From Dehalococcoidia bacterium (GTDB taxonomy: Bacteria; Chloroflexota; Dehalococcoidia; Lucifugimonadales; Lucifugimonadaceae), in contig JAJEAU010000015.1 of NCBI GenBank assembly GCA_022824185.1, forward strand, positions 92,268-156,267: 64,000 nucleotides of DNA, in the 5' to 3' direction. A program made the position numbers and the translations under genes. The notes under the pieces are model-generated. The model searched no databases and was not told the DNA's origin. It was given only the letters and a program-made list of their open reading frames with translations. This document shows, in pieces, positions 491 through 63,404 of this stretch; the stretch's first letter is position 1, and each line of letters begins with the position of its first letter.

Positions 491-2182
491 CTATTCGGCT
501 ATTACATAGTGCGCACCACGCGCCCGTCCCCTGAGTTCTACCAATCCTTCGTCTCGCATCTCACGCATCAGTGCGACTGTTTGGTTGCGGCCGTATCCGG
601 TAATCTCCCTCACTACCGAGTTTGTGATCGACCCGCGTTCGGTAATCGTTTGAAGCACGAGGACCCGCGCTCTGCGAGCGTCGATTATGCCCGCCGACTC
701 ATCAGGTTCGATCCTGCCCCAACTTGCAAACTGTCGACCCAAACTGTAAGCAGATCCCTGCCCCCTGCCTCGAACCTCCAATAAACCGAGCGCGTTCAAC
801 GCGGCCAGACGCTCAGCGGCATCCGTTTCATCCACCTGCAAGAGTTCGGCGGCAGACCAACGATTCAATTCCACGCGCGTCATCAAGGATCGCATGATCA
901 TCAGATCTTCGAGCTCCAGTCTTTCACCGCTCAAACCTTGTTCAGCTACGAAGCGCGCGAATCCTTGATGCACAACGGTAGGCAGTGTCAGCTTTACAGT
1001 AGCGATGTCCGCTTCGTACCGCGGCAACCCCTTGCCTCCTCGAAGAGTTTCTTCGAAGATTCGATCGACCCCTAGACCCATACGGTTCACGAGGCCGATT
1101 TTCTGCAATGCGTCCGCCAAAAGATGGTTTCGGCGAACTGGTCGATGGCGCAACACGTTTTGTGGCGAGACGTCGCCGACGAAGCCGCCCGGGTTGCTCA
1201 GTTCGACGCGATCGTGGTACAGATTCAAGTGCACAGAATCGCCGAGGAAATAGTCGCGATGCACCAGAGCATTTAGAACAGCCTCCCGAATCACCAACCA
1301 GCTCAGATCAGGGATTTCAAAGTGATGGAATCCCAAAACCTCGATCGTCGTTAAACGCACGTTGGCATCAACAATTCTTCGGACTTCGTCCAGCGTTTTC
1401 AGCATGGGTTCTCGCAGGTCTCTACGGAAGTCGTACTTTGTGGGTTCTTGAAACCTTGCGACGATCAACTCGTGTTGCGGAATGGATCGAATTATGGCTG
1501 ATTTACGCCCCAACAGAAGAACGGCGGCCATGGTGATGCGCCGACCTTCCACTAAACCGAGTGCTTCGAGTAGTTCTTTATCGCCAAGTCCGTTCAATTC
1601 AAAGCCGACTTCCTCCTCCCGGATGATTCCGCGCAATCGATTTATCTCGGCAGGGTCAATGGCATCGGTATCCTCGCCTGCCACAATCTCGGAGGTAGCA
1701 TCTGCAACACCTCGGCTTGCAAGCATTGGCGCGAGGCTCGATCCTGTCAAGGGTTTCGATTCTTTGCCGACACGGATCCTTGCGATGCCGTCTGTGGTGG
1801 TGACCAACTGATTGCTGCTTGGCACCCTGACGATCAAGACGCGGCCTTCGGGTTCGATGACTTCCTCGACGTCGACGGTTATATGCGGGTCGGTGCCGTC
1901 GTAAATGTCTCGCTGGATATCGCTGATTTCGATTCGATGCACTCCTACGATCGCATCTGAGCGAGTGCGCTTGCCATCAGCAACGCCGAGTACCAAGTTT
2001 CCGCCATGTGCGTTGGCAAACGCGACTGCGGACTCTCGGATCGCTCGCGACTGTCGTCGGACCTCTGATCCTTGAGCATTTCCCGATTTGAACTCTAGAT
2101 ACTCTGACTCAAGCGCGTCGGCCGGTTCGCCATCTAGACGCTTGAGCATCTCGCGAATCTCTTCTGAGGTGAGGGCTGTCAT
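491..2182 (-). CDS. AlbA_2 (Schlafen-like) domain ATPase/transcriptional regulator
   Basis: This is a 563-aa protein of the COG2865-type family, often annotated as a RecG-like or putative DNA-binding protein although it is not a helicase. The N-terminus carries an AlbA_2 domain (EYLEFKSG near residue 30, then AFANAHGGNLVLGV). The middle has the GHKL-like ATPase C_4 signature: REAVLNALVHRDY, then DRVELSNPGGF. The C-terminal 130 residues look like one or two winged helices (WSAAELLQV, ITGYGRNQTVALMREM). It stands alone with no operon partner. Its start codon is 13 nt from the first of two near-identical 42-bp palindromic repeats, which suggests autoregulation. The cellular function of this family is not settled. 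The family assignment is secure, the role is not. Confidence 0.85.
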   Translation of the reverse strand: MTALTSEEIREMLKRLDGEPADALESEYLEFKSGNAQGSEVRRQSRAIRESAVAFANAHGGNLVLGVADGKRTRSDAIVGVHRIEISDIQRDIYDGTDPHITVDVEEVIEPEGRVLIVRVPSSNQLVTTTDGIARIRVGKESKPLTGSSLAPMLASRGVADATSEIVAGEDTDAIDPAEINRLRGIIREEEVGFELNGLGDKELLEALGLVEGRRITMAAVLLLGRKSAIIRSIPQHELIVARFQEPTKYDFRRDLREPMLKTLDEVRRIVDANVRLTTIEVLGFHHFEIPDLSWLVIREAVLNALVHRDYFLGDSVHLNLYHDRVELSNPGGFVGDVSPQNVLRHRPVRRNHLLADALQKIGLVNRMGLGVDRIFEETLRGGKGLPRYEADIATVKLTLPTVVHQGFARFVAEQGLSGERLELEDLMIMRSLMTRVELNRWSAAELLQVDETDAAERLAALNALGLLEVRGRGQGSAYSLGRQFASWGRIEPDESAGIIDARRARVLVLQTITERGSITNSVVREITGYGRNQTVALMREMRDEGLVELRGRARGAHYVIAE

Positions 2183-2195
2183 CGGGTCGCAATCG

Positions 2196-2295
2196 AAAAT
2201 GATTCATTATTCATTCTTTTGATTCTAAGAATCATTCAATGCTGTTCCAACCAAAAATGATTCATTATTCATTCTTTTGATTCGGAGAATCATTC
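2196..2295. repeat. Two 42-bp direct repeats, each with palindromic ends
   Basis: Copy 1 covers 2196-2237 and copy 2 covers 2254-2295. They match at 40 of 42 positions and differ only at TA versus GG near the right end. Each copy is bounded by an inverted pair, AATGATTC and GAATCATT, separated by 23 nt that contain several more ATTC words. The copies start 58 bp apart, close to an integral number of helical turns at about 10.5 bp per turn. The first lies 13 nt upstream of the AlbA_2 gene's ATG. The layout resembles paired operators for a dimeric or cooperative regulator. Autoregulation is an inference. Confidence 0.85.
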
Positions 2296-2339
2296 TTCGC
2301 CCTGGTGCCTAGGGCTTTGACCGGATGCAACAACCAGAA

Positions 2340-2364
2340 ACGCCCCGGATCATCTCCGGGGCGT
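2340..2364 (-). terminator. Rho-independent terminator of glnA
   Basis: A GC-rich stem, ACGCCCCGG paired with CCGGGGCGT, closes a seven-nt loop. On the minus strand it is followed by TTTCTGGTTGTT. It lies 28 nt past the glnA stop codon, so it reads as the glnA terminator. Confidence 0.75.
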
Positions 2365-2392
2365 CTCTCAAACTCTCGCCTGTTGCTGACGA

Positions 2393-3811
2393 CTAAGCGT
2401 CGTAGCTGAGGTAGAACTCGTAGGGGTGCGGTCGCAGGCGAATCGCGTCGACTTCGGTTTCGCGTTTGAAGTCGATGTAGGCCTCTAGGAGGTCTTCGGT
2501 GAAGACACCGCCCTTGGTGAGGAACTCGTGGTCCTCTTCCAAGGCGTTCAATGCCTCCTCAAGGGTGCCGGGCACCATGTTCAACGACTTGGGGTCGAAG
2601 GTGTAAAGGTCACCCTCGATTGGGTCGCCAGGGCTGGCACCGGTCTCGATGCCGTCCAATCCTGCCATCAGCATCGCGGCGAACGCGAAGTATGGGTTGC
2701 ATGACGGGTCCGGAGGTCGGAACTCTACGCGCTTGGCGGCCGGGTTGTCGAAGTACATCGCGATACGGGCAGCAGCCGAGCGGTTTCGAGCGGACAACGC
2801 CAAGATGGTTGGGGCTTCGTACCCTGGAACCAATCGCTTGTAGGAGTTGCTGCTCGGAGCCACGATGGCCATCAAAGCAGCCCCGTGCTTGACCAATCCG
2901 CCGATGTAGTTGAGCGCAAGGTCGCTCAAGCCGGCGTAGCCGTCACCCGCGAAGAGCGGTTTACCGTCTTTCCAGATCGACTGGTGGGTGTGCATACCGG
3001 AACCGTTGTCCTCGAAAAGAGGCTTCGGCATAAAGGTCGCGGTCTTGCCGTGCTTGGCGGCGGTGTTCTTGACGCAGTACTTGTAAGCCATGACCTTGTC
3101 AGCGGTTTCGACTAGAGGACCAAACCGGAAGTTGATCTCGCCCTGACCGGCCGTCGCGACTTCGTGGTGATGGCGCTCGATTTCGATACCGAAGTTCGCC
3201 ATGTGATCGCACATCTCAGAGCGGATCTCTGTCTGCGTGTCGAGCGGAGGCGTGGGGAAGTATCCGTGCTTGTGTCGGATCTTGAACCCTAGGTTCGGGC
3301 CTTCTCCCGAAAGGTCAGTGGCGTTTCCGGAGTTCCAGATCGCCTCTTCAGAATCGACCTCGTAGTGGGCGGTGTTCGCCGTGAGGTTGTAGGAAACGCT
3401 GTCGAAGATGAAGAACTCGGCTTCGGGCCCCCAGTATGAGACATCGCCGATCCCGGTATCGATCAGATGCTGCTCGGCATGCTTGGCGACGTATCGAGGG
3501 CTTCGGTGGTAGTCCTCTTTCGTGATCGGGTCTTGCACATCGGCGATCACAGTTATGGTGTTCGGGATGAACGGGTCCACCGCTACGGTGTTGATGTCCG
3601 GCACCAAGAGCATGTCGGATTCGTCGATCGACTGGAATGCTCGGATGCTGGAACCGTCGAATCCGACGCCGCCAGTGAACATCGAGGCGTTCACCTCGCG
3701 TTTAGGCAATGTCATGTGTTGCCACGTCCCAGGGACGTCAACGAACTTGATGTCGATCCATTCGGAGCCGGTATCGGCCATCAACTTCAGCACATCATCG
3801 GCAGTTTGCAT
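2393..3811 (-). CDS. glnA: Type I glutamine synthetase
   Basis: The enzyme makes glutamine from glutamate, ammonia and ATP. At 472 residues it has the usual length for the dodecameric GSI class. Visible signatures include the N-terminal beta-grasp segment with FDGSSIRAFQ, the catalytic-domain GPEAEFFIFD, the ATP-binding region KPLFEDNGSGMHTHQS, and NRSAAARIAM followed by RVEFRPPDPSCNPYFAFAAML. The segment GDLYTF carries a tyrosine at the place of the adenylylated Tyr in the GSI-beta class, so control by GlnE is possible. No GlnE or PII gene is in the window. The ATG at 3811 follows a GGAG ribosome binding site. A terminator-like hairpin follows the gene. Confidence 0.97.
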   Translation of the reverse strand: MQTADDVLKLMADTGSEWIDIKFVDVPGTWQHMTLPKREVNASMFTGGVGFDGSSIRAFQSIDESDMLLVPDINTVAVDPFIPNTITVIADVQDPITKEDYHRSPRYVAKHAEQHLIDTGIGDVSYWGPEAEFFIFDSVSYNLTANTAHYEVDSEEAIWNSGNATDLSGEGPNLGFKIRHKHGYFPTPPLDTQTEIRSEMCDHMANFGIEIERHHHEVATAGQGEINFRFGPLVETADKVMAYKYCVKNTAAKHGKTATFMPKPLFEDNGSGMHTHQSIWKDGKPLFAGDGYAGLSDLALNYIGGLVKHGAALMAIVAPSSNSYKRLVPGYEAPTILALSARNRSAAARIAMYFDNPAAKRVEFRPPDPSCNPYFAFAAMLMAGLDGIETGASPGDPIEGDLYTFDPKSLNMVPGTLEEALNALEEDHEFLTKGGVFTEDLLEAYIDFKRETEVDAIRLRPHPYEFYLSYDA

Positions 3812-4451: not shown

Positions 4452-5378
4452 ATGCAGATGGTCGATTTCGGAAAAACAGGGTACAAAGTCTCACGCCTTG
4501 GAGCGGGGCTCGCAGAGATCGGATCGGAACTCGACTTCGATGACGTCGAGCAAGCCGGAAACGTTCTCAACAACGCCCTCGACATGGGTATCAACTTCCT
4601 TGACACCGCAGCATGTTACGGAATATCCGAGGAACTCATCGGTCGAACGGTAGCGAACCGCCGAGACGAATACACACTCGTCACCAAAGCCGGCCACGCA
4701 CGTGGCGATGGCTTAGACGGTAGCGATTGGACTTACGAAACCGTCCGAGACTCTATTGACCGAAGTCTTCGACGCCTTAACACCGACTACGTCGATCTAG
4801 TCCAACTCCACTCTTGCGGCATCCCCGATCTAGAAAAAGGCGACATAATCCGAGGATTGGAAGACGCCCGAGACGCCGGCAAGACTCGCATGATTGGATA
4901 TTCCGGCGACAACGAAGCCGCTCACTGGGCTGTCGACTCTGGCATCTTCGACACCCTCCAGACCAGCTTCAACCCAGTCGAACAACGCGCCTACACCACA
5001 GGTCTGCTGGAAAAATGCGCAAATTCGGGCACGGGCGTAATTGTCAAGCGACCAATCGGCGGTGCCACATGGGGCATGGCCAAATCCGGCATGGACAGCT
5101 CTCGACGAAGCTACGACAACACCTACCTGGAACGCTGCGTCCGAGTTCAAGCCCAAGGCGATGTGCCTGGCGAGCCGGATGACCCGATCGTAGCGGCTAT
5201 GGGATTCACCCTTGCGCATCCGGAGATTCACGTCGCAATCATCGGCACAAAGAACCCGCGCCACATGGTCTCCAACATCGAGACGCTCGATGATGCGCTA
5301 AGCATTGACGGCACCTTCGTAGATGCCATGCATGATCGCTTCGCCGAACTCGACGACGACTGGCGGCAACTCACGTGA
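4452..5378 (+). CDS. Aldo/keto reductase
   Basis: This 308-residue NAD(P)-dependent oxidoreductase of the AKR superfamily shows the catalytic tetrad in order: Asp and Tyr in FLDTAACYG, Lys in VTKAG, and His in VQLHSCG. The start was moved from the ORF-track position (4383) to the ATG at 4452, because an AAGGAG ribosome binding site lies 9 nt upstream and similarity to the family begins there (MQMVDFGKTGYKVSRLG). The stop overlaps the GTG start of the next gene by 4 nt, so the two are translationally coupled. Next to two sugar-acid dehydratase-like genes it may oxidise an aldose or lactol. The substrate is inferred only from context. Confidence 0.92.
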   Translation: MQMVDFGKTGYKVSRLGAGLAEIGSELDFDDVEQAGNVLNNALDMGINFLDTAACYGISEELIGRTVANRRDEYTLVTKAGHARGDGLDGSDWTYETVRDSIDRSLRRLNTDYVDLVQLHSCGIPDLEKGDIIRGLEDARDAGKTRMIGYSGDNEAAHWAVDSGIFDTLQTSFNPVEQRAYTTGLLEKCANSGTGVIVKRPIGGATWGMAKSGMDSSRRSYDNTYLERCVRVQAQGDVPGEPDDPIVAAMGFTLAHPEIHVAIIGTKNPRHMVSNIETLDDALSIDGTFVDAMHDRFAELDDDWRQLT

Positions 5379-6538
5379 AGATCGAACGCATCGAGATTCA
5401 CCCCCTCGTCGGCAAACTAGATCAACCATTCGGCTGGTCGCAACGTTGGACGAACGAACGCGGAACGCAGGTCGTCCGCATATTCGCCGACAACGGCGCG
5501 TACGGATGGGGCGAGACCGGCTGCGGCCCCAACGCGCTCGCCGATGCAGCCCGAAATCTAATCGGTGAAAACCCCGAACGAATCGGTGCCATCTGGCAGT
5601 CGATCGTGAACCCAAACTACCAGAGCGGTGGATACGCTGGCCCCGCATCAAACATCGCTAGCGCCGTGGACATGGCCCTCCATGACCTGGTCGGTCGTGT
5701 CAGAGGGAAACCTGTCTACGAACTCCTCGGCGGCAAGGTGCGAGATCGGATCTGCGCCTACGCCACCGGCCTCTATTACGTCCCCTCCGATCTCGAAGAC
5801 AAAACGTGGTCCGACTTCCGAGAAGAGGCTCAAGGCTACGTCGACGATGGTTTCTCCGGCATGAAGATGAAGATTGGCGGCTTGACCCTCAGGGAAGACA
5901 TCGATCGCATCTACGCCCTCCGAGAGCAAGTCGGTGACGAAGTCCGGATCATGGTCGACGCCAACGAAGCCTACGACCCGATGACCGCTATCCAAGCCTC
6001 CTATCAGATGGCCGATGCCGACGTAACCTGGTTCGAAGAACCGTGCTCATCACGGGCCGACGAAGACAACCTCCTCGTCACTAGCCGATCCCCTGTTCCC
6101 ACGTCTGGCGGCGAATCGGCGAGCACCCGACGCGAAGTCGCCCGGATCCTGAAAAACCGCGTCTTCGACATCATCCAACCCGAGATTGTGAACGTCGGAG
6201 GCATCTCCGAGTTAAAACTCTCGGCATCGATGGCCGAGGCTTGCAACGTCCGGTTCGTGCCACACTTCTGGAACACCGCCATCAGCTTCTCGGCCATCCT
6301 TCACACCCTCGCCACGGTTGCCCAATCTCCCCCGGCACACCCCAAAGAGCCGTACGTCAACGAACCCGTCACCGAGTTTGATCAGACGCCGCACCCGATC
6401 CGCGAGAACCTGACAGACCCGATCTTCAAACAGACCGAGAGCCACGTGACGGTGCCCGATAAACCCGGACTCGGCGTCGAAGTCGATGAGGACGCGCTCG
6501 CCCACTTCCGTCAAGGTGACGCCATCATCGTCCGATAG
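5375..6538 (+). CDS. Mandelate racemase/muconate lactonizing family protein (paralogue 1)
   Basis: This 387-residue enolase-superfamily enzyme would abstract the proton alpha to a carboxylate, usually for sugar-acid dehydration or racemisation. It has the KxK base (MKMKIGG), the first metal ligand in MVDANEAYD, the second in WFEEP, the third in GGESAS, and the His general base in VPHFWN. The Asp that normally pairs with that His (QPD) is Glu here (IQPEIVNVGG). The start is GTG, overlapping the upstream stop as GTGA. Together with the next gene (about 60 percent identical by eye) it forms a tandem duplication. Galactonate, fuconate or mannonate dehydratase activities are all possible; the substrate cannot be read from sequence. 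Confidence 0.93.
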   Translation: MKIERIEIHPLVGKLDQPFGWSQRWTNERGTQVVRIFADNGAYGWGETGCGPNALADAARNLIGENPERIGAIWQSIVNPNYQSGGYAGPASNIASAVDMALHDLVGRVRGKPVYELLGGKVRDRICAYATGLYYVPSDLEDKTWSDFREEAQGYVDDGFSGMKMKIGGLTLREDIDRIYALREQVGDEVRIMVDANEAYDPMTAIQASYQMADADVTWFEEPCSSRADEDNLLVTSRSPVPTSGGESASTRREVARILKNRVFDIIQPEIVNVGGISELKLSASMAEACNVRFVPHFWNTAISFSAILHTLATVAQSPPAHPKEPYVNEPVTEFDQTPHPIRENLTDPIFKQTESHVTVPDKPGLGVEVDEDALAHFRQGDAIIVR

Positions 6539-6552
6539 GGCAATCGTTTGAC

Positions 6553-7716
6553 ATGAAAATCGAACGCATCGAACTCCACAATCTCGTAGGGAAGATCGAC
6601 GAACCCTACAAGTCGTCGATGGGCTGGAAAACGACCCGAAACACGCTCGCCGTCAAGGTCATCGCCGATGACGGCACCTATGGCTGGGGAGAAACCGGCG
6701 CCGGAGCCAATGACTTCGCCGATGTTGCCCGGGGCATCGTAGGGATGAATCCTGAGCGCTTCGGCAGCGTCTGGCAATCGATCGTCAACACTCGATACCA
6801 AGGCGGCGGGTACGCCGGTGTCGCATCCAATGTCGCGAGTGCCATCGACATCGCCCTGCACGATCTTGTCGGAAAATCTCGAGGGCTCCCGGTTTATGAG
6901 CTTCTTGGCGGAAAAGTCCGGGACAGAATCTTCACCTACGCCACCGGTCTTTTCTACACCGAGAAGGATGTCAACGATTCGACGTGGCCTGATCTCCGCG
7001 AAGAGGCACAGTCCCACGCCGAGGCCGGTTTCAAAGCGATGAAGATGAAAATCGGCGGATTGACGATGGATGAGGATGTCGATCGCGTCCACACGCTCCG
7101 GCGAACCGTGGGCGACGATATCCGTATCATGGTCGACGCCAACGAGGCATACGACGCTGGCACAGCCATCGCAATGTCACGCCGAATCGCCGACGCCAAC
7201 GTCGGTTGGTTCGAAGAACCCACGTCATCCCAAGCCCTTGACGACAACCTTCTGATAACGACGCAATCTCCTGTGCCGACCGCTGGCGGCGAGTCCGCTA
7301 GCACACGCCGAGATGTCGCACGGCTGCTTCGACGCCGCATCTTCGACATGATCCAACCCGAGATCATCTGCGTCGGCGGCATCTCAGAGCTCAAACTCTG
7401 TGCGCAGATGGCAGAAGCCTTCAACATCCAATTCGTCCCGCACTTCTTCAACACGCACATCAGCCTTGCGGCCATCCTCCACGTATTAGCGACCATCTCG
7501 CAGGCACCGCCCGCCCATCCGAAAGAACCGTTCGTCAACGAACCAGCAACGGAGTTCGACCAAACGGTCCATCCGGTGAGGAGCGCGTTAACCGATCCCT
7601 TCTTCACTCAGTCCGAAGGATGGGTGGACGTACCCGAAAAACCAGGTCTCGGCATCGAAGTCAACGAGGATGCGTTAGATCATTTCCGCGTCGGCGATGT
7701 CGTGGTCGCGGATTGA
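6553..7716 (+). CDS. Mandelate racemase/muconate lactonizing family protein (paralogue 2)
   Basis: This is the second 387-residue member of the tandem pair, starting 14 nt after the first. The same catalytic set is present: KMKIGG, MVDANEAYD, WFEEP, AGGESAS and VPHFFN. It also has Glu instead of Asp in IQPEIICVGG. The identical length and conserved N-terminus (MKIERIE) point to gene duplication. The two proteins differ in the 20-30 residue lid loop that recognises substrate (QPFGWSQRW versus EPYKSSMGW), which suggests different substrates or a heteromeric pair. The pair probably acts with the upstream aldo/keto reductase in sugar-acid breakdown. This is inference from context. Confidence 0.93.
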   Translation: MKIERIELHNLVGKIDEPYKSSMGWKTTRNTLAVKVIADDGTYGWGETGAGANDFADVARGIVGMNPERFGSVWQSIVNTRYQGGGYAGVASNVASAIDIALHDLVGKSRGLPVYELLGGKVRDRIFTYATGLFYTEKDVNDSTWPDLREEAQSHAEAGFKAMKMKIGGLTMDEDVDRVHTLRRTVGDDIRIMVDANEAYDAGTAIAMSRRIADANVGWFEEPTSSQALDDNLLITTQSPVPTAGGESASTRRDVARLLRRRIFDMIQPEIICVGGISELKLCAQMAEAFNIQFVPHFFNTHISLAAILHVLATISQAPPAHPKEPFVNEPATEFDQTVHPVRSALTDPFFTQSEGWVDVPEKPGLGIEVNEDALDHFRVGDVVVAD

Positions 7717-60554: not shown

Positions 60555-63404
60555 TCACAACCTCACATTACAAACCACCGGCTCTGAAGCCAACAACACC
60601 CGCAACCCCCGCAAATCCGGCAATCCCAGAATCTCCGACACCCCCTCATCCAACGCCGACCGCGCAGCACAATCCGCCATCCCCGGCAACCGTTCAAATT
60701 CCGCATCCGCCAACTCATCGAAAAGGTCTGACAACCCGCTGAGTTGCGACGTAGTAATCTGACTAGGATCCAATACAGGCAGGATTCTAAGTTCTGATTT
60801 CTTGAACTTAACCCAAGGTCCCCGTGTGGTCGTACGGATTCCGAGCAACGCAAGAATTCCCAAGCTCGAGTTCATCCATACCGCGACCGCCTTTTCATGA
60901 TCAGGGTCGTTAAGTCTTAACGGCCACCATACGTTTGACAGAACATTCTCGGAAGAGCGCATCGTCACAACCCTTACGGTTTCTAACCAAATACGTTCGC
61001 AAATCAAAATCCGTCCAGCCTTCGGCCACAGAGTATCAATCGGTTTTAGCCGTCTACCCGGTCGAGGTGACGCCAAAGGTGCGAGATATTTGTCCGGGAT
61101 TGTTGAAATAGTGCGGCGTACATCCGTGTTGTGGTTTTCGACCATACGGTAAGCAGTTACAGTATTTGTAGGTTCGAAGCCGTCACGAACGTCTCGAATG
61201 TCCGGACCAATCTCACTTATCTGATCCAAACGACACATCGGCACACTGCCAACCGAAGCTTCGCCAGGCACCCAAACCTCGCCATCTTCCAAAAGCCTCA
61301 ACGCGCTTCGCACAACATCAGCCCGAGCGAACTGTACACCCGACCACTGCTTACCCTTGAGCTTCGATTCCGGAACCGAAAACACCTCGCCTACATGCTG
61401 GGCATCAACCTCTAGCAGGGCAGTGCCCGTATCCTCAATCCTCGCCGGCTCAGTTGTGTTGATCGCTTCAGCTACACGATGGGCGTCTAATATCCCTTTG
61501 GGGTTCTCCCAAAGGTTGACGAATGTGGTCCGATGTTCCTCTCCATCCCCGTTATCAGGACGCCGAGTCGCGATCAATAACGCTTCGGACAATTCCGTGC
61601 TGTCCGAAAAGTTCCAACGCGAAGGATCATGCGACGCCACTACCACGTCCAACATATAGTCGTTCTCTATCAACGCCCGCGTCTGCGACCACGAAGGACC
61701 TGTGCAAACTGTCAACGGCAAAACCAACGCCAAACGCCCTTCGCCAGGCCGCAATTTCGGCGATGCTGCCGCTACGAACGCAGCACCAAGCCCCGCGGTC
61801 GACGACGCCTGCATCGACCGCAAGCGACGCGACAACTCCCGTTGAAGCCTCGTTCTTTCCGCTCTCGGTAAACTCCCAAATAGTAGGTTCCCGCCAACTG
61901 ACCTAGTAAACGGCGGATTCATTATCGCCAGATCCAACTCCGGCAGTCTCGCCGTTTCTCCTTCTTTTACCCCGCGCGAGCCTCTCCCAGATACTCGCCT
62001 AGCATCTCGCGTCGTGATGCCAGTCTGTTCAGGCGACATTGCATACTGCACAGCAGCTTCGTTTGAGTTCAGGAACTCTAACGACCCCAGCAGGACATTC
62101 GAACCCTCGACCCCAAGTGCCATCTCGTAAAGCCTCATGTGCTCGAATTTGATGTCAGGGTTGAGCATTGCAAGGCTCGTCGCTGCGAAATGCACCGCCG
62201 ATAGCTGTACGTCGTAGCCGTACAAAGCTCTTTCAACCATCTCTTTGTGAAGAGCCGCAGCTTCAGTTCCTCCCGCATCCGTGTGTTTCCGCTCCACCTC
62301 GGCAGCCACTGCCATCAGCAACGTCCCAGTGCCGCACGCTAGATCCGCGATATTGAGTGATGCCGGATACTCGTGGTCGGACCAGTCGACACCCTCAGGC
62401 CAGTCATCGAATACCAATCTTGACAGCATTGTCGCCGCGGGAACAGATGTATAGTACGCCCCAGTGAACTTGGCATCCGTTAGGAGCGTGTGAAACAACC
62501 GCCCTGCAAGATCATGCCCTTCTAGGGTCCGCGTGTCCTTTACAGCCTTTACCAAAGGTTCGATGACCGGAAGTTGCACTTCTGGAGGACCGTCCTTGAG
62601 CACATCCACGATGTTCCCGGCCAACTCAAAAACTGGCACGTAGTCGATTTTGTCCATGACGTAGGTCCACGCGTCGTGCAACCCGTCGAGGTCTTTTCTC
62701 AATGCTTCGTTTACGGTGGCTACATCATCGTCTACCGCAGCGAGACGATCTTGAAACGCCAACGCGTTGAAAAGCACCAGACACCCGATACGTAGAGCTG
62801 CCGCGCGATCCTTTTCCTTGTCAGATTTGGCGATAATATCCGAAGTCCGCCGCGCGATTCTGGCGTGTCCAGCAATCTTCTGAGCCGACTCTTCAAGCGC
62901 GTAACCCACGACACCGGCCGCAGCCTGAACACGGTCAACACCCTCAATCTCCAATGGAAGAACTCGCAAGTGATCCGCGAGGTCAACAACAGACCCGGTC
63001 CGTACACGATGCTCGTTTTCTACATCCCCGCGAACCCCGTGTAGCCACCATTCAATGTCACCGGCATTCTCCAAACACGAAAACACGTCTGCTGCTTGAC
63101 GAAACTCCTCGGGATATACAACGCCCAATATCCCTAACTCATCTGGAAAAGCATCCAATCTCTCGTTTAGCTGTGACTCCAAATCATTGCGCGAACCGCC
63201 GTACTTGCATTCCATCAAAACGTTGTCGCCGGTTCTCAACTCAACACGAATGTCCGGGACACCTTGCCGACTACGTCGCTCAGCGCGTGCGTCGATTCCG
63301 CGATCCTTCAGCATGCGAGCCAAGGCGACGTTAAACGCCTCCTCGCGATTAGTTTCCGATCTGTCTCTTCTAGGCATGTCCAGCTGTGGCACTTCCCGCC
63401 CCAT
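60555..63404 (-). CDS. Single-chain restriction-modification-like N6-adenine DNA methyltransferase with N-terminal nuclease domain
   Basis: This 949-residue protein combines three parts. Residues 1-140 carry a PD-(D/E)XK nuclease signature (GVPDIRVELR...NVLMECKYGG). Residues about 330-600 form the methyltransferase with motif I LNIADLACGTGTLLMAV and motif IV LAIMNPPFTR. The C-terminal third is a probable target-recognition domain. This is the layout of type IIG/IIL enzymes or an orphan methyltransferase. No separate specificity, restriction, BREX or DISARM gene accompanies it. An ATG at 63377 (MPRRDRSE) is an alternative start. It may be a solo defence gene; nuclease activity is inferred only from the motif. 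Confidence 0.85.
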   Translation of the reverse strand: MGREVPQLDMPRRDRSETNREEAFNVALARMLKDRGIDARAERRSRQGVPDIRVELRTGDNVLMECKYGGSRNDLESQLNERLDAFPDELGILGVVYPEEFRQAADVFSCLENAGDIEWWLHGVRGDVENEHRVRTGSVVDLADHLRVLPLEIEGVDRVQAAAGVVGYALEESAQKIAGHARIARRTSDIIAKSDKEKDRAAALRIGCLVLFNALAFQDRLAAVDDDVATVNEALRKDLDGLHDAWTYVMDKIDYVPVFELAGNIVDVLKDGPPEVQLPVIEPLVKAVKDTRTLEGHDLAGRLFHTLLTDAKFTGAYYTSVPAATMLSRLVFDDWPEGVDWSDHEYPASLNIADLACGTGTLLMAVAAEVERKHTDAGGTEAAALHKEMVERALYGYDVQLSAVHFAATSLAMLNPDIKFEHMRLYEMALGVEGSNVLLGSLEFLNSNEAAVQYAMSPEQTGITTRDARRVSGRGSRGVKEGETARLPELDLAIMNPPFTRSVGGNLLFGSLPRAERTRLQRELSRRLRSMQASSTAGLGAAFVAAASPKLRPGEGRLALVLPLTVCTGPSWSQTRALIENDYMLDVVVASHDPSRWNFSDSTELSEALLIATRRPDNGDGEEHRTTFVNLWENPKGILDAHRVAEAINTTEPARIEDTGTALLEVDAQHVGEVFSVPESKLKGKQWSGVQFARADVVRSALRLLEDGEVWVPGEASVGSVPMCRLDQISEIGPDIRDVRDGFEPTNTVTAYRMVENHNTDVRRTISTIPDKYLAPLASPRPGRRLKPIDTLWPKAGRILICERIWLETVRVVTMRSSENVLSNVWWPLRLNDPDHEKAVAVWMNSSLGILALLGIRTTTRGPWVKFKKSELRILPVLDPSQITTSQLSGLSDLFDELADAEFERLPGMADCAARSALDEGVSEILGLPDLRGLRVLLASEPVVCNVRL

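Follow-up and report, generated by a model that had tools for sequence, protein, structure and literature searches.

A duplicated 39-bp bipartite element as the likely self-repression operator of a solitary Schlafen-type gene in a Dehalococcoidia genome

The window analyzed here, a 64,000-nucleotide stretch of the genome of a marine Dehalococcoidia bacterium of the SAR202 group, carries a gene for a protein that combines a Schlafen-AlbA_2 domain, a GHKL ATPase and tandem winged helices, with a duplicated palindromic element directly upstream of it (Table 1). As originally predicted, the gene has no partner: it stands alone between glnA, on the same strand, and a convergent dipeptidase gene. 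The glnA of the window (2393-3811) is 73 to 78% identical to the glnA of six other members of the genus, which share 88 to 98% identity among themselves, whereas the adjoining dipeptidase is 92 to 96% identical to those of genus members; from this difference, a replacement of the window's glnA by a foreign copy appears possible. Elsewhere in the window, two tandem paralogues of 387 aa (5375-6538 and 6553-7716) have the look of the enolase superfamily (mandelate racemase-like).

Table 1. Features of the locus, of the orphan units in related genomes and of the wider gene family
Feature	Position	Strand	Remarks
Schlafen-AlbA_2/GHKL ATPase/tandem winged-helix protein, 563 aa	491..2182	-	
AlbA_2 (Schlafen) domain, residues 25-145	1748..2110	-	Catalytic triad of Schlafen proteins aligned to E25, E30 and D69
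HATPase_c_4 (GHKL-type ATPase) domain, residues 314-400	983..1243	-	Pfam
First winged helix, residues 424-481, ArsR-like	740..913	-	
Second winged helix, residues 502-561	500..679	-	
Candidate proximal operator unit, coding-strand sequence AATGATTCTTAGAATCAAAAGAATGAATAATGAATCATT	2198..2236	-	Spans the predicted -10 box and start region
Candidate distal operator unit, AATGATTCTCCGAATCAAAAGAATGAATAATGAATCATT	2256..2294	-	End falls just upstream of the predicted -35
Inner dyad TGATTC-N3-GAATCA, proximal unit	2220..2234	.	Second copy 2278-2292
Inner 18-bp dyad AATGA-N8-TCATT, proximal unit	2198..2215	.	Second copy 2256-2273
Predicted promoter TTGGAA-N17-TAGAAT	2222..2250	-	-35 at 2250-2245, -10 at 2227-2222
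Terminator-like hairpin of glnA	2336..2368	-	Sets glnA apart from the operator region
Orphan unit, G001	G001:C67:8857-8895 (L107)		Between glnA and dipeptidase
Orphan unit, G003	G003:C2:694-732 (L108)		Between glnA and dipeptidase
Carriers of the second dyad, upstream of the AlbA_2 gene	L036, L038, L039, L043, L049, L057, L052, L059, L077		

The identification of the product as an AlbA_2 ATPase is borne out by Pfam, in which the AlbA_2 model scores 72 bits (cut-off, 25.3) and the HATPase_c_4 model 63.8 bits (cut-off, 26). Residues E25, E30 and D69 align with active-site residues of SLFN11 and SLFN13, the catalytic triad of the latter being E205/E210/D248 (PMC5862951); among 22 homologues, E25 is invariant, and E30 and D69 are kept in at least 90%. 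For the C terminus, where a winged helix had been proposed, the AF2 model (mean pLDDT, 86.8) does present this fold, in two consecutive copies rather than one. The first resembles ArsR-type folds (Foldseek being among the comparisons), and the second is scored in an orthologue (genome G005, see below) by HTH models of the IclR, TrmB and MarR types. With its AlbA_2 domain, E-E-D triad, HATPase_c_4 domain and winged helix, the protein has the features of the Schlafen-AlbA_2/GHKL/wHTH (COG2865-like) proteins. Two more AlbA_2/HATPase paralogues, of 25 to 29% identity and without the element described here, are encoded in the same genome (G000:C22:14063-15178 and G000:C10:41858-42988).

The repeat upstream of the gene consists of two copies of 48 nt each (2190-2237 and 2248-2295; 92% identity), in which we could delimit a conserved core of 39 bp, with the structure AATGATTC-N23-GAATCATT, matching at 37 positions and differing at 2. 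The duplication is genuine, since the window contains exactly two occurrences of a 28-mer taken from the repeat, against none expected from shuffling. The two 39-bp units are separated by a 19-bp spacer and start 58 bp apart, as the original prediction had it; this distance had been described as close to a whole number of helical turns, which is wrong, since 58 bp corresponds to 5.5 turns at 10.5 bp per turn, a half-integral value. The 39-bp core lies 15 nt from the ATG (2182), and the 13 nt given previously is correct for the 42-bp version of the element. The description of the element as palindromic holds for the outer 8-bp arms of each unit and is refined by the two internal dyads, TGATTC-N3-GAATCA and AATGA-N8-TCATT. 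Within each unit the centers of the two inner dyads are about 20 bp apart, and those of the outer arms 31 bp apart, which corresponds to about three helical turns and would place the arms on one face of the DNA.

In the 2.54-Mb genome, no further locus with the repeat was found beyond the glnA-dipeptidase junction. Furthermore, a scan of 250 genomes of the order for AATGATTC-N23-GAATCATT returned six sites, in five genomes of the window's genus, all of them at the same junction. A dispersed palindromic repeat of the REP or MITE kind was ruled out, since both scans give one locus only, and so was a CRISPR array, given that there are only two repeats around a short spacer and that no neighboring cas gene was recognized. 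As to the inner dyads, exact TGATTC-N3-GAATCA occurs at two sites of the genome, both in the two units, while a regulon defined by AATGA-N8-TCATT was discarded, its two extra exact sites, in a PIN-domain coding sequence and between convergent gene ends, being judged due to chance. The comparison of the promoter DNA with phage gave no match.

The genus was represented by seven Dehalococcoidia/SAR202 genomes, G000 (the window genome) to G006. Orthologues of the AlbA_2 gene are present at the glnA-dipeptidase junction of G004 (locus L026; 70% identity) and of G005 (55% identity), and in both the repeat precedes the gene; thus, the element accompanies the orthologues and is not dispersed through the order, as the original prediction would have it. 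G004 has two units, 58 bp apart as in the window, and G005 has three, namely, one A-type unit adjoining glnA and two B-type units adjoining the AlbA_2 gene. When G000 is compared with G004, 72 of 78 positions (92%) are identical in the units and 78 of 137 (57%) in the remaining intergenic sequence (Fisher p = 1.3e-8). Gemmatimonadota also have orthologues, with about 53% identity, and one of these (L029) carries ATTCATTATAATGAATGATGGTTC. This sequence is identical at 22 of 24 positions to the core of G005 unit 3 in reversed orientation; in the roughly 0.9 Mb of loci compared, no match to that unit from outside the genus was better. Viral contigs contained no relative when the three SAR202 orthologues were used as queries and five distant homologues when a broad alignment was used; in plasmids there were distant homologues only, with identity of at most 30% among the best matches.

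The position of the predicted promoter is also shared. In G004, its hexamers, their spacing and the distance to the ATG are identical to those of the window, and in five close orthologues (G000, G004, G005, L028 and L029) the predicted -10 box, located at -45, -45, -41, -42 and -42, respectively, and always with a 17-bp spacer, falls within the candidate operator. In particular, the predicted -10 boxes of the two Gemmatimonadota orthologues among these lie inside the palindromes TTCATTAAAATGAA and TTCATTATAATGAA themselves. It could be argued that the direct repeats, which number two or three and immediately precede the gene of a putative RNase, encode an antitoxic RNA that neutralizes the Schlafen-like RNase, as in type III toxin-antitoxin systems, but this is very unlikely, because the best-conserved core across phyla is a DNA palindrome with the predicted -10 box, found in the opposite orientation in L029, the interval between repeats and gene is devoid of a terminator, RNA folding is no better than that of shuffles (z, -1.3), and neither an Rfam match above threshold nor a ToxN-type match (Pfam, PADLOC) was obtained.

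The state of the junction varies within the genus: unit and gene are both missing in G002 and G006, G001 and G003 have one unit and no AlbA_2 gene, and G000, G004 and G005 have the gene with two, two and three units, respectively. Since no AlbA_2 homologue was found in either of the draft genomes G001 and G003, the element is not confined to genomes that carry the gene, although its orphan copies occupy the same junction. The orphan unit of G001 is identical to unit 1 of G005, while its flanks have diverged. Most simply, the orphan units are leftovers of gene loss; the intact unit of G001 amid diverged flanks implies that this loss was very recent or that the unit has another role, and an old loss leaves it unexplained.

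The comparison of G004 with G005 points to an exchange of alleles at this site. The two genomes share 96.5% DNA identity in glnA and 91% in the dipeptidase gene, against 66% in the AlbA_2 gene; the identity extends across unit 1 and TTTTTCGTT, then breaks and returns, at 93%, in the final 75 bp of the gene. From these two boundaries, it is most likely that a foreign AlbA_2 allele, accompanied by the operators belonging to it, entered an A-type frame in G005, and that unit 1 is a remnant of this frame. On this sequence evidence, candidate operator and coding sequence are exchanged together. The break directly past unit 1 and the turnover of the junction, with unit and gene both absent, the unit alone or both present, would also suit a mobile palindromic element, or an integration or recombination site that receives Schlafen genes, with any regulation being incidental. 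We regard such an origin as highly improbable, given that there is no site elsewhere in 250 genomes of the order, that the 3' side of the gene has no unit and that no neighboring integrase or transposase was recognized; moreover, the second break is located within the coding sequence, which is what ordinary homologous recombination would produce, and the occurrence of the predicted -10 box within the operator in five orthologues would be left unexplained.

The orphan units bear on a further explanation, according to which the units are operators of an unlinked, genus-wide regulator (e.g., of the MarR, Fur or ArsR type) that controls the AlbA_2 gene and still binds the orphans of G001 and G003. 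The two genomes that have a unit but no gene, with one of these units in perfect condition, agree with this explanation, which we nevertheless consider improbable: that neither the window genome nor the 250 scanned genomes of the order contain a further site would be odd for such a regulator, the operator type switches with the allele of the gene, and a matching operator accompanies the orthologue from Gemmatimonadota. Taken at the level of sequence, the element is conserved, specific to the locus, placed over the predicted -10 box, linked to the allele and absent elsewhere in the order. We therefore favor, as likely, the hypothesis that the 39-bp units are the operator through which the protein, by means of its own tandem winged helices, represses its own gene. 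The conservation of the unit and its replacement together with the gene in relatives are what suggest a self-repression switch, and the autoregulated single-gene regulon put forward originally gains support from an operator that tracks the allele and contains the predicted -10 box in five orthologues.

A comparable arrangement was noticed in a second clade of the family (Chloroflexota and Actinomycetota), where the gene is preceded by a dyad unrelated in sequence, of the AGTTTAGC-N23-GCTAAACT type, with the consensus AGTTT(T)AG-...-CT(A)AAACT and spans of 36 to 40 bp, mostly exactly 39. Exact 8-bp arms with a span of 39 occur in 10 of 79 upstream regions with both clades pooled, against a mean of 0.2 and a maximum of 1 in shuffles, a post hoc statistic whose carriers are confined to the two clades; in the same 79 regions, none was found with the even spans 38, 40 and 42. 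On the tree, the dyad label needs five changes and falls in two separate clades. Outside these, the 39-bp span test was negative for further Chloroflexota members (L159 to L172), and no such dyad was present in L159, L162 and L164 to L172, which belong to other clades, so this form of autoregulation would not be family-wide: the 39-bp geometry recurs, yet it is not universal. A dyad test with spacers of up to 10 bp, by which long-span dyads are missed, gave an unconvincing result, with p <= 0.05 in only 7 of 35 homologues. The AGTTTAGC pattern had two sites in 400 genomes and no copy in viral contigs. The site in G573 was rejected as an independent example because its sequence is the L057 locus, and the other (L188, G678:C379:1066-1104) is unrelated, being a perfect palindrome of nested structure, AGTTTAGCACTAAACT-N7-AGTTTAGTGCTAAACT, that directly precedes a MarR-like gene and is probably the own operator of that regulator.

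With respect to function, the gene of the window lies between glnA and the dipeptidase gene, outside any defense island. In the second clade, L036 and L057 adjoin hsdS and hsdR of type I restriction-modification systems, and L032, which is closer to the window's clade, is found among Cmr6, an IIG-like methylase and a PLD helicase. From these neighborhoods of relatives (type I restriction-modification, CRISPR/IIG), a defense role of the window gene appears likely. The turnover of the locus likewise resembles that of a defense gene, in that alleles appear to have been replaced, the gene to have been lost with an orphan operator left behind, and the locus to have passed from one phylum to another. 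PMC12839542 describes widespread BREX-linked effectors in which a Schlafen RNase is joined to a minimal histidine kinase and a wHTH, and cites a preprint by Taboada et al. on anti-phage Schlafens. The purpose of the gene, given as unknown in the original prediction, can thus be narrowed to that of a Schlafen-type, probably defensive effector. At the far end of the window, a 949-aa ORF on the minus strand (60555-63404), with an NPPF motif and a nuclease-like N terminus, looks like a stand-alone methylase-restriction enzyme of the IIG/Eco57I type.

In the mechanism that we envisage, a dimer of the protein, with four winged helices in total, would bind each unit through the outer arms and the inner dyads. 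Occupation of the proximal unit would block the start region along with the predicted -10 box, and repression would be reinforced from the distal unit, which ends a short distance upstream of the predicted -35 box; in this way, the protein may hold itself at a low level. Its N-terminal Schlafen domain, in which the triad is intact, probably acts as an RNase effector and its GHKL ATPase as the sensor, with infection or stress leading to release from the DNA, to activation of the RNase or to both. It is possible to hypothesize, as a tentative proposal to which we attach a low probability, a one-protein immune switch in which one polypeptide unites Schlafen RNase, GHKL sensor and repressor of its own gene, the same ATPase-driven change leads both to release from the DNA and to activation of the RNase, and operator and allele are exchanged between strains as a cassette at a fixed chromosomal site. 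AlbA_2/GHKL/wHTH proteins are widespread; their annotation often reads transcriptional regulator or RecG-like helicase, and they have lately been described as RNase effectors tied to phage defense. The locus supplies a concrete candidate DNA target for them, with sequence, register, predicted promoter overlap and natural allele pairs, which lets self-repression, and the coupling of derepression to effector activation, be tested directly.

Among known structures, the best Foldseek match and nearest solved structure is PDB 3LMM (DIP2311 of Corynebacterium diphtheriae, an uncharacterized structural genomics target), a full-length homologue (profile positions 42-557; E = 1.9e-49) with about 20% identity to the window protein. 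Regulators of the ArsR/SmtB and MarR types are autorepressing winged-helix proteins with operators over their own promoters. The palindromic operator proposed here, over the predicted -10 box of its own gene, and the ArsR-like fold of the first winged helix recall these regulators; what sets the present case apart is the fusion of the DNA-binding part with a putative RNase and a GHKL ATPase, as well as the length (39 bp) and bipartite structure of the operator. For the mammalian RNases SLFN11 and SLFN13 we know of no role as transcriptional self-repressors. They share the AlbA_2 domain with the aligned catalytic E, E and D (PMC5862951), but they are without the GHKL or bacterial wHTH part. The closest likeness in domain order (Schlafen AlbA_2, GHKL ATPase, wHTH), in the conserved E-E-D triad and in the defense neighborhoods of relatives is to the BREX-associated Schlafen fusions as presented in the parts of PMC12839542 considered, in which there is no mention of self-repression. 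Compared with these fusions, as far as those parts describe them, the gene of the window stands alone between metabolic genes, encodes two wHTHs and has a dedicated, duplicated 39-bp candidate operator. The protein is best seen as a Schlafen-type effector that probably represses its own gene through the winged helices fused to it, by way of a bipartite operator reserved for this gene.
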